Positions 41,472-50,116 of a DNA stretch of 64,000 nucleotides are shown here, piece after piece (position 1 is the first letter of the stretch; the number at the start of each line of letters is the position of its first letter). Source of the DNA: Arthrobacter globiformis (GTDB taxonomy: Bacteria > Actinomycetota > Actinomycetes > Actinomycetales > Micrococcaceae); contig NZ_QLNP01000074.1 in assembly GCF_003261175.1 (NCBI RefSeq), positions 124,001 through 188,000 of the forward strand. Direction: 5' to 3'. The notes beneath the pieces are model-generated. The model was given only the letters and a program-made list of their open reading frames with translations. It had not been told where the DNA came from and did no database searches. A program made the position numbers and the translations under genes.

Positions 41472-41749
41472 TCCGGGGTCATCCGGAGCAGCGAAACGAG
41501 CGTGAATCTAGGCAGCCGTCGACGGAAGGTGAACAGGCGCGACGATGGGCAAAAGCTGCCAGCGCGAGCCTTCTGAGAGACGTTTCTAACGGAGATGCCA
41601 TGGAAGCGGGAACTGTTGACCGCGAACGCTCTAAACCGCGGCAGTGGATCCCGCCTGGCGTAGCGGGTAGTCCTCGAATACCGAACTAAGCGCGGAAACA
41701 AAGGCTAGGTCTGCAGGTGAAGCGGGTGCCGGCAGCTAGGATTCGTTCA

Positions 41750-42595
41750 ATGCAGCATCAGTGGACGGGCGGACAACTCAAGCGATTAAGCAAATGTCTC
41801 CGCGACGGGCTGGAACCCCGTGGCGACGTCCCGGATTATGGCGAGGTGATGGTCTTTTACAACGACGTGGCCGTCCATGTCGAGCAACAAATCGACGAGA
41901 TTGACTGGCCGGAGCTTCTCGGCGGCGTACGGCCGAAAGTTACATCCCGGGCCAAGTCCATTGACACTCTTCGGGAAAAGCTGCAGAGGGAACCCACCAC
42001 GCCACTGCCCAGCGTGCAGGACGTCGCCGGTGTCAGGTTTGAGGCCGATATGACGCTGGCTGAGCAAGACAAGGTTGTTCAACAGCTCGTGGGGGCGTTT
42101 GGCGCCGGCTGCACAGTTCGCGATCTTCGCAAGGAACCGCACAGTGGCTATCGAGCTGTGCACATCTGGCTCAGACTTCCTGTCCGGGCGGAGCTCCAGG
42201 TTCGTACTCAGCTCCAAGGCGCTTGGGCGAACATGTATGAGTCGGCTGCCGACGTTTTCGGCCGCGAGATTCGGTACGGCCACATGCCCGAGGACGACGC
42301 GTCAGCCAATCTCGTCGAGCAGATGCACGCCCTTTCTCTGGACCGCATCGTCACCTTGGAGAAGTCACGCAATGAGGTCCAACAACTTGAGATTTCCCAT
42401 GGCCGGTCTTCTCAATTTCTCCAAACTCTCATGCCAGGGCCGAAGGGAGAACGGATCGCGGACGAAGTGGCGCAGCTGCGAGGAACGCTGCACAGAGTGC
42501 GCGAGCTGCTTCGAAAGCAGGAGGAAGCGACCACAGAGGAGATGGTCGTTCTTAAGCGTCGCTTTGATACCATGCGAGAAGAACGAAAGGGGTGA
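41750..42595 (+). CDS. RelA/SpoT-domain protein (small alarmone-synthetase-like, possible toxSAS toxin)
   Basis: The 281-residue protein has a (p)ppGpp-synthetase-type domain at about residues 55-165: SRAKSIDTLREKL, SVQDVAGVRFEAD (the conserved metal-binding position), then HSGYRAVHIWLRL and AELQVRTQLQGAWANMYE. There is no HD hydrolase domain before it nor TGS/ACT after it; the C-terminal 110 residues are helical and coiled-coil-like. Stand-alone RSH domains act as housekeeping alarmone synthetases or as toxins that make (pp)pApp or pyrophosphorylate tRNA. A small gene follows after two bases, as in toxSAS toxin-antitoxin pairs. An in-frame GTG at 41717 is an alternative start. Confidence 0.8.
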   Translation: MQHQWTGGQLKRLSKCLRDGLEPRGDVPDYGEVMVFYNDVAVHVEQQIDEIDWPELLGGVRPKVTSRAKSIDTLREKLQREPTTPLPSVQDVAGVRFEADMTLAEQDKVVQQLVGAFGAGCTVRDLRKEPHSGYRAVHIWLRLPVRAELQVRTQLQGAWANMYESAADVFGREIRYGHMPEDDASANLVEQMHALSLDRIVTLEKSRNEVQQLEISHGRSSQFLQTLMPGPKGERIADEVAQLRGTLHRVRELLRKQEEATTEEMVVLKRRFDTMREERKG

Positions 42596-42597
42596 CC

Positions 42598-42828
42598 ATG
42601 CCGGGCTTTGTTATCGAATACAACAGGATTACGGGCGACCACTTGGTCACCGAGTACTCCGGTGCTGACGGACATCGAGCAGCGCTGCTGCGTCGGCTCG
42701 AGCTGGAAAAGATCCGCCCAAGCGCCGAATGGGAGATAGTTTCGCTGAACAGTGACTCCCTGGACACTGTCAGAAAGACGCACTCCAGGTACTTCACAGG
42801 CCACGCCGTTCACAAAATGAGTGCGTAG
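42598..42828 (+). CDS. Small protein paired with the RelA/SpoT-domain gene (candidate antitoxin)
   Basis: The 76-residue protein starts two bases after the RSH stop, with GAAAGGGG upstream, so expression is coupled. It has alternating strands and one helix (PGFVIEYNRITGDHLVTEY, AALLRRLELEKIR, WEIVSLNSDSLDTVRKTH). I recognise no family by name. Size, acidity balance and tight coupling suit an antitoxin or regulator of the RSH protein, which is an inference from position. Confidence 0.6.
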   Translation: MPGFVIEYNRITGDHLVTEYSGADGHRAALLRRLELEKIRPSAEWEIVSLNSDSLDTVRKTHSRYFTGHAVHKMSA

Positions 42829-43835: not shown

Positions 43836-44417
43836 TTAGGCGGTGGTAAACAGCATTGATGCGCCTACGCATGCCGTCCCGAACAAGACAAGTGCGGCGA
43901 AGCCATTGACCGCCTTTCCGCATGCGGTGAACTTGCGTTCCGCCAGGAGTGATAGGTCGAGGACTTGTTGCCACGCGTCCGCGCGGACATCATTGTGGCT
44001 CGTATGCTCGAGTAGTTGTTCCGGTGTTGCCCGGACGAGGGAAGGCCAGGCAAAACGATTTAGTCGGGCGTAGAAGACCTTGTTTTGTGGTCCAATTGCT
44101 CGCACTAGCCAAAACAGTGTCCATCCAACTGCCAACACGGTTCCGACAGCGAGCCCGCTGACGACTGCTGCCGAGACATGACTCTTGCCCATTGCGTCAA
44201 GGATCGTTCGCGAGTTATTGATCAACATTGTCAGGACGACGCCCAAGCCAGCTGTCAGGATCGTGGCCTTTGTGTCTGCAAAGCGAACCCAGTTTGCCAG
44301 TTGGTCCATAGCCTGGAACCCGCCGTCAGCTGGTTTGCCATCTGCGGGCTTGCCAGCAAACGTGGGGTCCGGTGCCGCCGGCTCGGGTTCGGAGTTTGGG
44401 TTACGTTTAGACCGCAA
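43836..44417 (-). CDS. Pycsar effector-like membrane protein (PycTM / DUF5706-like)
   Basis: The 193-residue protein has a polar N-terminus of 40 residues, the conserved ADTKATIL motif (residues 47-54) running into membrane segment 1 (to about 67), a second segment at about 81-107, a cytosolic helix pair (RLNRFAWPSLVRATPEQL, LSLLAERKFTACGKAVNG) and a third segment at about 171-190. This TM-TM-helices-TM layout with ADTKA is characteristic of PycTM effectors, which respond to cCMP or cUMP and damage the membrane in infected cells. It overlaps the E2-like gene by 11 bases and is the last gene of a cyclase-E2-PycTM operon. Confidence 0.8.
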   Translation of the reverse strand: MRSKRNPNSEPEPAAPDPTFAGKPADGKPADGGFQAMDQLANWVRFADTKATILTAGLGVVLTMLINNSRTILDAMGKSHVSAAVVSGLAVGTVLAVGWTLFWLVRAIGPQNKVFYARLNRFAWPSLVRATPEQLLEHTSHNDVRADAWQQVLDLSLLAERKFTACGKAVNGFAALVLFGTACVGASMLFTTA

Positions 44418-45021
44418 TGCCCTGTGATCCTTCCACGGGCCAACGGCGAGTCATGCGCCATTCGGTGTAGGCAGCGAGCCAGTGAGCAGCCCAGGACGCG
44501 GCGGTAGCAACGGTGTGTTCCCGTGGATTCCAGTCCTCAGCTGCTGCCACGCAAAGGGTGCCGTTCAAGTACAGGTGAGGCGACGGGATCCAGCGCCGAC
44601 CTGCGTTCACGCCAAGTTTCGGCCCCAGAACCGTAATCCTAGGCAGTCCCTCATCACGGCGGGGGTAGATGGCCACGAGGAACTTGCCGCGCCCGGTGTC
44701 GATGGTGCCTCCCCAAGATGGCGCTTCGTCATCTGTTGCAGCGAGATAGACCCAACCCGGGAAAGATTTATCCATGGCGGCGCGGTGGCGGTTGAATCGG
44801 GGAGCGTCATTCCACCATGGCGAGGTTTCGGTGCCTTTGTCGGCCGGTGGGTTCTCTCCTCCGTGAAAGGTGTGGTTGGCTACAGGCGTCACCGTGCCGT
44901 GGGCAGGGTGCGAGGAGTTTGCGGGCGTCGTGGTGACGTTATCGAAGACGATTTGCCCGTCGATGGTGACCCACCTCGGGACGTTAACCCCGTGGTGTCG
45001 GAGCAGTGCAGCGATTGTCAT
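44407..45021 (-). CDS. E2 (ubiquitin-conjugating)-like protein of CBASS short type II kind
   Basis: The 204-residue protein ends in a domain that looks like prokaryotic E2 proteins: strands FLVAIYPRRDEGLPRITVLG (about 114-133), then PSPHLYLNGTLCVAA (147-160) with candidate catalytic Cys157 and His149, then the helix HTVATAASWAAHWLAAYTEW and RRWPVEG. The LC motif followed by W...WL..Y..W...WP is the pattern of bacterial E2 domains of CBASS Cap2 and stand-alone CBASS E2 proteins. The N-terminal 80 residues are variable and unassigned. It has GAGGAG before its ATG, follows the cyclase by 18 bases and overlaps the effector, so the three are one operon. No E1 or deconjugase gene is visible. Confidence 0.72.
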   Translation of the reverse strand: MTIAALLRHHGVNVPRWVTIDGQIVFDNVTTTPANSSHPAHGTVTPVANHTFHGGENPPADKGTETSPWWNDAPRFNRHRAAMDKSFPGWVYLAATDDEAPSWGGTIDTGRGKFLVAIYPRRDEGLPRITVLGPKLGVNAGRRWIPSPHLYLNGTLCVAAAEDWNPREHTVATAASWAAHWLAAYTEWRMTRRWPVEGSQGIAV

Positions 45022-45039
45022 GATGAACTCCTCGTCAGT

Positions 45040-45849
45040 TCAATTGATCGTGATGCTGGCTGTGGACTTGCCGTTGACCTGCTGGACGGTGCCCGGAATG
45101 TATTTAAGGGCTCTACGCCAGTGGTACTGGTAGAAGTTGTAGGTCTTGACTACTCCGGCTCGCTGGTAGGACTTCGGCGATTTTTCATGCCGGCTGTACG
45201 TCGTGGAATCGGGGACTTGTTGGGCGATACCCTGGCCGATCACGATCTCCCAAGATTTTGCCTGCTTTTCGCATTTGGCTGCGAAGTTGGCGGCGAACCC
45301 CAGGGGGTTGACCTCGCTGTGCTCGTGGTTCCCGCTACGAACAAAGGTTATGCGTCCGTAGTCCAGGCCGGCCCGGGCTTGGACTGGCTCGATGTTCTTG
45401 CGCTGCAACCGTGGATTTACTTCATTTTGTACGGCGTCCAGGGCAAAGGCGCAGGCGCTCAATGCCATGACGCTGTCGATTTGAGCATTGCCCGGACCGA
45501 AGCCGGCAAACAGTCCGTCGCCGCGGAGTCCAAGAGGGAAGCCGCCGAACGCGGTTACTGTTTGTATGAACCCTGTGAGGAGGGCGTGGGCTAGGTCGGC
45601 AACTTCTGTCTCGTCGTCCCAGAAGCTGCGGCCGGTGAAGTCGGTCAGATCGATGAACACCACCACCATGGGTGAAGTTAGGCGCTCCCCGACACGCAGC
45701 GTCTCGAACGCTGGATGACCGAGTGCTTTGGTCTCCAGAGCCGCGGAAGCACGGAGAGACTCTTTCATGACGCCGTTAGTTGCACGACGAATCGAGAAAT
45801 CACCCATGACGGCGTCGCCGAACATGCCGGGCGTGTACTCAGTCATCAT
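45040..45849 (-). CDS. Class III nucleotide cyclase, Pycsar (PycC) type
   Basis: The 269-residue soluble protein has one cyclase catalytic domain: VVVFIDLTDFTGRSF (metal Asp67), LRGDGLFAGFG (second metal Asp111), and NPLGFAANFAAKCE (186-194 region with Asn188 and Lys192 in place of the usual Asn/Arg pair). There is no membrane, HAMP or GAF domain, as in phage-defence uridylate/cytidylate cyclases. The next genes encode an E2-like protein and a PycTM-like effector, which supports a signalling role against phage. Nucleotide choice (UTP, CTP or ATP) cannot be read safely. A GGAG lies before the ATG at 45849; ATG at 45846 is equally placed. Confidence 0.82.
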   Translation of the reverse strand: MMTEYTPGMFGDAVMGDFSIRRATNGVMKESLRASAALETKALGHPAFETLRVGERLTSPMVVVFIDLTDFTGRSFWDDETEVADLAHALLTGFIQTVTAFGGFPLGLRGDGLFAGFGPGNAQIDSVMALSACAFALDAVQNEVNPRLQRKNIEPVQARAGLDYGRITFVRSGNHEHSEVNPLGFAANFAAKCEKQAKSWEIVIGQGIAQQVPDSTTYSRHEKSPKSYQRAGVVKTYNFYQYHWRRALKYIPGTVQQVNGKSTASITIN

Positions 45850-45947: not shown

Positions 45948-46226
45948 CTAGAAGCGGGGGAGTGAGAGCAGATTATTGTTCCATTCGCCATCCGCGTAAG
46001 TCCGAAGGTATGGAACTCGGCCGTTGGGCTTGATGACACCGACTTCCGCTCTTCCGTTTGGTGAGCTTACGTAGGCGCGTACACCCTGAACGTCGATAAA
46101 TTCGACTATCGAGGCCTTTGTGTTCGATCCCGTCTCCGAGCTTTCTTCCTCAATCCAGCGAAAATTGGTGATGTTTTCGTGGTTGATGGAGCCAGAAAGA
46201 CGAACATGTGTAATCCGTACAGCCAA
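45948..46226 (-). CDS. DUF3892-family small protein
   Basis: The 92-residue protein begins MAVRITHVRLSG and has the NITNFRWIEE strand, GVRAYVSSPNGRAEVGVI and the typical ending VPYLRTYADGEWNNNLLSLP, which is the DUF3892 signature. The family is widespread in bacteria, often beside variable genes; its function is unknown. It lies 98 bases upstream of the cyclase on the same strand and may be transcribed with it, though a promoter could lie between. Confidence 0.72.
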   Translation of the reverse strand: MAVRITHVRLSGSINHENITNFRWIEEESSETGSNTKASIVEFIDVQGVRAYVSSPNGRAEVGVIKPNGRVPYLRTYADGEWNNNLLSLPRF

Positions 46227-48165: not shown

Positions 48166-48549
48166 TCACGATGAAATAGCCTCTAAACGCCTCAGCGCAC
48201 TTGCGACTTTTTCGAACGGCTCGTTGTCAGTACCAACTAGGCGCTCGGCAGTTGCTTCTTTGACCGTCAACTTGTCCCAGTATGGCCTTTCCGATGTTTC
48301 CCCCCATGATCGGTCTACTTCCCAAAGATAACCGTCGGTGCCCAGCACCAACGTGCCACCGATGTAATGGAAGTCTTTCCAATCGTTCCCCAATGCATCG
48401 CTATACTTTTGGCCGCTAGCGTGATCGGAGCGACGACCAGGCACGAGCTCCCATCCGTTAATTTCACCGAAGGTCTGGATGCGGGTAGACGCCGTAGTGG
48501 CAAGGGCGGCTACGCGCTTCGCTTCAGATCGAAGCTCAGTGAGATTCAC
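48166..48549 (-). CDS. Hypothetical protein, member of a local three-gene family
   Basis: The 127-residue protein starts at a GTG behind AAAGGACGA. After an N-terminal helix, FHYIGGTLVLGTDGYLWEVDRSWGETS and the ending RLVGTDNEPFEKVASALRRL are seen. The LVGxxxEPFxKxxxxLxRL ending is shared with the proteins at 48973-49356 and 49760-50116. The set looks like immunity-type or structural proteins of small size, but nothing in the sequence fixes a function. Confidence 0.6.
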   Translation of the reverse strand: MNLTELRSEAKRVAALATTASTRIQTFGEINGWELVPGRRSDHASGQKYSDALGNDWKDFHYIGGTLVLGTDGYLWEVDRSWGETSERPYWDKLTVKEATAERLVGTDNEPFEKVASALRRLEAISS

Positions 48550-48972: not shown

Positions 48973-49356
48973 CTAGTACTGGTATCGAAGGCGTTGGAGT
49001 ATCTCTTTGTACTTACTGAAGGGCTCTCCCTCTGATCCCACAAGGTAACTTTTCGGCATTGGCCTAATTCCATGACTGAGACGCGTGTCGCGCTCATGCT
49101 CATCGACGCCGGAGAAGGAATACTCCCAAAACCTGCAATCGGAATCGATGACATACGCGGTCCTGCCCCAGGCCTCCTGCCACCACCCCCTTCCTGGATT
49201 TCCGCGGATCTCGATGTCTCGCTCAATCCCATCGAACTGCCAACCAAGGATGGTTTGTCCATCGCTGCTTGTGAACGTGGCTTTCGGCACGGATTTTGAG
49301 ATCAACGTCGCAACAGTGTCTTGAGCCGTTGTCATAAAGTCTTGCTCGTAGTCCAT
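48973..49356 (-). CDS. Hypothetical protein, member of a local three-gene family
   Basis: The 127-residue protein begins MDYEQDFMTTAQDTV; an in-frame ATG at 49395 is possible, but the paralogue at 49760 starts at the equivalent place (MVNYESDFWDAV). Both share VP.T.FTSS.G..L.GW, a tryptophan-rich middle (YVIDSDCRFWEYSFSG) and SYLVGSEGEPFSKYKEIL near the end. A soluble globular protein of unknown role. Confidence 0.6.
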   Translation of the reverse strand: MDYEQDFMTTAQDTVATLISKSVPKATFTSSDGQTILGWQFDGIERDIEIRGNPGRGWWQEAWGRTAYVIDSDCRFWEYSFSGVDEHERDTRLSHGIRPMPKSYLVGSEGEPFSKYKEILQRLRYQY

Positions 49357-49759
49357 ATCGGCCTGCCTAGTCTCTTTCCCTTGGGTTTCTTGCATGGGCT
49401 GCCTTGTTTATACACCAACCGCCGCGGGAACCCGTGCTGCTGATGGGGGTATTCGGACGACCGATCTGCCCACTCTTGTTAACGAACTCCTGAAGCTATC
49501 GAAGGTTCCTTGCCTTGGATTGCCCGGAGTGCGGTTGGACGGAATTTGGACCTGAATATTACGAAAGGAGAGCTCGGTGGGGGCACACAGGCGCGCAGTC
49601 GAGCTGTCTTTCGAGGGGCACTGAGCCAAGAGAGAACGGCGAAGGCGGTGAGTCCCTTCCAATATAGAGGCATTGATATAGGCTTTGAAGATGGCAGCGA
49701 AGAGTGCATTTCTAGTTCGCATTGGTCTTGCATAGGCCCAGGCACGGGAGTCAGTTCTT
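49357..49759. other. Intergenic region between divergent paralogues, no gene assigned
   Basis: About 400 bases separate two divergently read members of the small family. It presumably holds both promoters. Open frames at 49408-49745 (minus) and 49510-49797 (plus) lack convincing coding features. Confidence 0.4.
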
Positions 49760-50116
49760 ATGGTGAATTACGAAAGCGATTTCTGGGATGCTGTTAGAAA
49801 CAGCATCGACGTCTTGAAGGCCAAAGGAGTTCCTACAACGCTTTTTACATCATCAAGTGGGCACGCGCTGCAAGGTTGGCTGGTTGAAAGATGGCATGAA
49901 AATACAGATGGTGTAGGCCCCGGAGGCACGCCTCTCGAACGTTGGCACAGTGAAGTGGTTCTCAGCGAGGACGGAAAGTTTTATCTCTACAGCGTCGAGT
50001 GGACTTACGGTGAAGGCGAAACGCGTTCGTTGCAGCCTCATTCGGGACTGGTTGGATGGGAAGGAAAGCCATTCTCCAAGCTTAAAGAGCAGATTGAACG
50101 GCTGCCGTACCTTTAA
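49760..50116 (+). CDS. Hypothetical protein, member of a local three-gene family
   Basis: The 118-residue protein shares with its divergent neighbour YE.DF at the start, GVPTTLFTSSSGHALQGW in the first half and GLVGWEGKPFSKLKEQIERL at the end. The middle HSEVVLSEDGKFYLYSVEWTYGEG is the same DG.fy.Y pattern. It is the only member on the plus strand. Function unknown. Confidence 0.6.
   Translation: MVNYESDFWDAVRNSIDVLKAKGVPTTLFTSSSGHALQGWLVERWHENTDGVGPGGTPLERWHSEVVLSEDGKFYLYSVEWTYGEGETRSLQPHSGLVGWEGKPFSKLKEQIERLPYL

Follow-up and report, generated by a model that had tools for sequence, protein, structure and literature searches.

On the minus strand of the 64,000-nucleotide stretch of Arthrobacter globiformis contig NZ_QLNP01000074.1 analyzed here (positions 124,001 to 188,000; hereafter the window), three tightly packed genes encode a PycC-like single-domain class III cyclase of 269 amino acids (window positions 45849-45040, ATG start), a ubiquitin-conjugating-like (E2) protein of 204 amino acids (45021-44407, ATG start) and a PycTM-like membrane effector of 193 amino acids (44417-43836, TTG start). 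This trio is probably an abortive-infection operon of the pyrimidine cyclase system for antiphage resistance (Pycsar) type, in which the E2 protein, with no E1 gene in the operon, serves as a regular third component that regulates the cyclase catalytically. The three proteins match the PADLOC models PycC (1.5e-28), E2 (2.5e-17, residues 77-198) and PycTM (8.2e-12), respectively. Both a PycC-type class III cyclase with its two metal-binding Asp residues and a dedicated effector are found within the operon. None of them scores above a curated Pfam cut-off, the cyclase and the effector (PycTM) having sub-threshold matches only and the E2 protein none, and none is matched in NCBIfam. The open reading frames confirm the tight operon, with an 18-base gap between cyclase and E2 and an 11-base overlap between E2 and effector, that an original prediction had made from the sequence alone, and the motifs quoted there for the three proteins are present. 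Its assignment of the effector to a PycTM-like protein also holds, but the three transmembrane segments are less firm: two segments (residues ~84-102 and 166-190) are above the hydropathy threshold, with no third.

The trio is not confined to its source genome, which bears out another part of that prediction, as the same gene order is found in 20 distinct loci (L023 and L062 included). One scan by pattern, run with the E2 protein over a genome collection, returned 16 actinobacterial loci, a count that is a lower bound, and among the genomes of 59 relatives the E2 gene is found in three: the window's own, G004 (locus L018, a copy of L001) and G035 (L019). The cyclase gene immediately precedes the E2 gene in all 20 distinct loci, and an effector relative was found in 19 of them by tblastn with the window effector. 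In the remaining one, L005, the window effector misses, yet the gene there matches PycTM (3.4e-15), so the effector has diverged while the cyclase and E2 were kept. The gap between cyclase and E2 is 5-18 bases in 19/19 rows (18 distinct loci), and an effector start codon is available at exactly the 11-base overlap with the E2 stop in 15/18 rows (14/17 distinct loci). Because the order is kept in all 20 distinct loci, the reading of the three genes as chance neighbors is rejected. At L016 (8001-8613) a break interrupts the E2 gene near residue 22 and the adjoining cyclase and effector frames are open, which is either an error in a draft sequence or a real loss.

The trio is rare. Profile searches with E2 and with the cyclase in 396 genomes across the phylum found the source genome only (1/396 with the cyclase, at E 1e-20); started from the cyclase within the order, the search returned 3/396 genomes at E 1e-8, in all three of which E2 adjoins the cyclase. 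The PADLOC PycC model is matched in 109/246 genomes of the class, among the matches listed mostly in frames of more than 400 codons, and the three best places in the class are members of the E2-linked cyclase clade. With the PADLOC E2 model alone, a draw of the same size gave those same three genomes (3/246), the gene adjoining the cyclase. These profile searches scored few candidates per genome, and weak or further copies can escape them. No E2 relatives were found in plasmids, phages or viral contigs at the limits used.

A tree built from 41 cyclases groups the 19 E2-linked rows into a single clade (support 100/99), to which a haloarchaeal cyclase on a long branch is the nearest row. The E2-linked clade and the plasmid cyclases resembling Pycsar clade E are placed apart from the genus's conventional PycC proteins (91/80, not starred); owing to several long branches, this deep placement is unsure. 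Hosts are intermixed in the tree (e.g., Leucobacter beside Arthrobacter), which fits a transfer of the trio between genera. Pairwise distances among 18 loci are correlated most strongly between cyclase and E2 (0.86), followed by cyclase and effector (0.68) and by E2 and effector (0.62), and none of 2000 permutations reached any of the three values. The ratio of nonsynonymous to synonymous substitution rates is below 1 for all three genes in three close pairs (0.42, 0.15 and 0.16 for E2).

The predicted structure of the 204-residue middle protein has an E2, or ubiquitin-conjugating (UBC)-like, fold of fair confidence that aligns to the E2 protein of the cyclic-oligonucleotide-based antiphage signaling system (CBASS), in line with the fold expected of it, and the catalytic Cys of the E2/UBC superfamily is present. 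Foldseek E-values for the model are weak (best 8.5e-3), and the 50 structural matches listed are titled E2, UEV, UFC1, VPS37A or Fanconi (FANCL/core complex). The residues singled out in the original prediction, Asp67 and Asp111 of the cyclase and Cys157 of E2, are correctly numbered, and each is invariant in 17/17 aligned rows. So is His149 of E2, and the motif to which Cys157 and His149 belong is common to CBASS E2 proteins. It appears unlikely that the E2 protein is a non-catalytic partner, similar to ubiquitin E2 variants (UEV), that binds and holds the cyclase and for which catalysis by Cys157 is irrelevant, as occasional loss of these two residues would be expected in a pure scaffold. 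A conserved N-terminal extension (~residues 1-76) is found across the trio loci and is absent from the seven CBASS E2 proteins examined. The PADLOC model PDLC00816 ("oligonucleotide-cyclase") matches the E2 protein through the C-terminal end of the model (485-536 of 542), pointing to the existence of cyclase-E2 fusions.

Exactly 25 residues follow the last Trp in 20/20 E2-linked cyclases, the total lengths of which range from 264 to 275. By letter this tail (residues 245-269) is the least conserved part of the protein (major-residue frequency 0.55), yet none of its 25 columns is gapped, compared with 14/67 in the N-terminal part and 0/90 and 2/94 in the better-conserved middle. Gly260, nine residues before the end, is nearly invariant (16/17), and in the predicted structure the tail forms short helices (block pLDDT 89, 82 and 76). 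Among 12 distinct PycC-like cyclases of the genus without E2, eight end 2-3 residues past a near-terminal Trp and four do not show this. Given its fixed length, the tail suggests that the end of the cyclase matters.

We propose that E2 binds the cyclase in the manner of the CBASS complex between CdnG and its E2, and that the cyclase tail or a nearby residue is taken onto Cys157 of E2 and passed to a lysine. Conjugation may activate or restrain the cyclase, which would thereby be primed or held; it would keep the cyclase ready or switch it on during infection, and the cyclic mononucleotide made by the cyclase would act on the PycTM-like membrane protein and stop growth. That the tail itself is the site of E2 action is a tentative part of this proposal, to which we give somewhat less than an even chance. 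The ending of the tail speaks against a mere duplicate of the CBASS mechanism. The nucleotidyltransferases beside E2 in seven CBASS loci, taken from 61 matched plasmid records, end in Gly plus one residue without exception, as does the solved SmCdnG. The trio cyclases were tested for a CBASS-like Gly tail, and this idea failed, the penultimate residue being Gly in 2/20 and the terminal residue in 5/20. The tail also lacks the N-x-[FY]-[FY]-G-X ending of the CBASS cGAS/DncV-like nucleotidyltransferases (CD-NTases). Judged from these endings, CBASS-type Gly conjugation as such is not supported for the trio cyclase. Less firmly, we suppose that, because the usual terminal Gly is missing, E2 either accepts a different tail end or first trims the tail, for instance at Gly260. 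The earlier suggestion that E2 may act on the cyclase is backed by their co-occurrence, correlated divergence and the fixed-length tail, though a mechanism simply copied from CBASS is not.

The missing CBASS-like Gly would also be accounted for if E2 attached something other than the cyclase, or had the effector, a phage protein or a host protein as its target, and were merely co-regulated with the cyclase; the 11-base overlap makes the link of the E2 gene with the effector gene no looser than that with the cyclase gene. We consider a target other than the cyclase quite unlikely, as E2 distances track those of the cyclase more than those of the effector and as L005 keeps cyclase and E2 despite its diverged effector.

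For the preferred reading, in which E2 regulates the cyclase, CBASS provides a close parallel. Short type II CBASS, in which E2 stands alone (SmCdnG-E2, 8hsb/8yjy), resembles the trio in that a cyclase gene is directly followed by a stand-alone E2 gene, with no E1 annotated alongside in the seven stand-alone-E2 loci, and the CBASS E2 proteins share with the trio E2 the Cys motif PH-x-Y ... LC, a Trp-rich helix and the E2 fold. In stand-alone-E2 CBASS, E2 is reported to process the cyclase C-terminus. The trio differs from CBASS in that its cyclase belongs to class III rather than to the cGAS-like CD-NTases, and its E2 carries ~75 extra conserved N-terminal residues and has no Gly-rich, His-bearing end like that of CBASS E2 proteins. 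Among the features of CBASS with a stand-alone E2, the cyclase-E2 order without an E1 gene is present, while the CD-NTase and its Gly-plus-one tail are not. Four-gene type II CBASS, which encodes a Cap2 E1-E2 fusion and Cap3, likewise directs ubiquitin-like machinery to an immune nucleotide cyclase (PMC11153139, PMC10419184), although in the trio the cyclase fold is different and E1 and isopeptidase genes are absent.

Compared with Pycsar, the trio cyclase resembles EaPycC of clade E (8jsf) in that a single cyclase domain aligns from near the N-terminus, the metal-binding Asp pair is conserved and a Phe lies two residues ahead of the first Asp. Clade E systems also have a PycTM-like effector in the operon, but unlike the trio they have no E2 gene between cyclase and effector. 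Four Pycsar-like loci on plasmids carry an effector-type gene ahead of the cyclase (annotated DUF5706 in one), while in a haloarchaeal locus it lies behind; the C-terminus of the trio cyclase is different from, and shorter than, those of the plasmid relatives. A second, conventional Pycsar locus in the source genome (L061, 3311-4647) consists, like the trio, of PycC and a PycTM-like effector with overlapping genes. Unlike in the trio, no E2 was found in that stretch, the cyclase stops two residues past the Trp and, by alignment, it has the uridine triphosphate (UTP)-type pocket letters of BcPycC (Tyr, Asp and Arg). In several related genomes (L064, L066, L068, L070 and L071), two PycC-like cyclases lie near each other without E2, and such pairing may be a variant of its own.

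Residues F65, D67, G107, R109 and D111 are invariant in 17/17 E2-linked cyclases. EaPycC is reported to contact cytidine triphosphate (CTP) via F100, R142 and Q144 and BcPycC to contact UTP via Y50, D94 and R97 (PMC11224242). By alignment, F65 of the trio cyclase agrees with the CTP set, but G107 and R109 replace R142 and Q144 of EaPycC, so the Phe, Arg and Gln set of clade E is represented by Phe only; the UTP letters, their positions placed from conventional PycC proteins, are unmatched in the E2-linked cyclases. Because this pocket is unlike the reported UTP set and differs at two of the three CTP positions, the product is not readable from the sequence. The invariant pocket of the clade makes the messenger directly testable.

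Taken together, the trio is best filed as Pycsar-like in its cyclase and effector and CBASS-like in its E2, and not as a member of CBASS. The statement in the original prediction that no Pycsar system with such a protein had been described stands for the open-licence literature, where none turned up, which is no proof. In CBASS, ubiquitin-like enzymes are shown to act on the immune nucleotide cyclase (PMC11153139). Because the same kind of E2 is regularly paired here with a cyclase of a different fold, conjugation may be a portable control module, as this pairing suggests, and bacteria may subject two unrelated immune alarm enzymes to the same kind of control by protein conjugation. A more specific scenario, conceivable though a little short of evenly balanced, is that a second recruitment of E2 conjugation without E1 took place on an unrelated class III cyclase: by processing or conjugating a fixed-length tail without the usual terminal Gly, E2 gates a cyclase with its own pocket and possibly a messenger other than cUMP or cCMP. 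If true, ubiquitin-like priming would serve immune nucleotide cyclases generally as a control module and would not be a CBASS trait. The trio also offers a small three-gene system for asking how E2 works without an adjoining E1 gene and how Pycsar becomes activated.

In the flanks of 16 loci, no further operon gene common to all was seen. The 80 neighbor genes surveyed (100 called, 20 left out) matched 132 PADLOC models, one gene being able to match many, and the 25 families listed include QatA, QatC, PifA, ThsA, type III restriction and RmrA. The control, 35 window genes distant from the trio, gave matches to six PADLOC models, with mad3 (9.4e-35) as the best; this set is smaller than the neighbor set and from a single genome. 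That the trio is instead a housekeeping or stress signaling operon using a cyclic nucleotide would agree with the lack of E2 relatives in the phage and viral-contig collections, but it is very improbable given its rare and scattered occurrence, the matches of cyclase and effector to PADLOC defense families and these defense-type neighbors.

A small DUF3892 gene (45948-46226, minus strand) lies ~100 bases upstream of the cyclase gene as an optional neighbor; by tblastn it is beside the trio only in the window, L001 (6742-7077) and L002 (6743-7078), all loci of the Arthrobacter type. L004, L008, L012 and L016 have upstream a divergent gene for a helix-turn-helix (HTH) protein and a small gene of no known family. 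In L004, on which this was tested, the HTH protein matches peptidase M78 below the cut-off, and L062 has a more distant HTH-M78 relative. These genes recall the HTH and ImmA/IrrE genes that are annotated next to CBASS loci. The protease CapP is of the M78 type. A regulator pair consisting of CapP and the repressor CapH is reported to govern CBASS, Pycsar and further operons upon DNA damage (PMC13373217).

Elsewhere in the window, a RelA/SpoT-domain protein is encoded on the plus strand at 41717-42595 (Pfam 4.3e-7; PADLOC candidate PDC-S33, 3.9e-13), its gene overlapping a small plus-strand gene at 42592-42828, with which it may form a separate toxin-type or defense pair. Three small proteins (48166-48549, 48973-49395 and 49760-50116) share a similar end, E-x-P-F-x-K, spotted by eye; the two checked in Pfam are unmatched, and the three are perhaps a local family.
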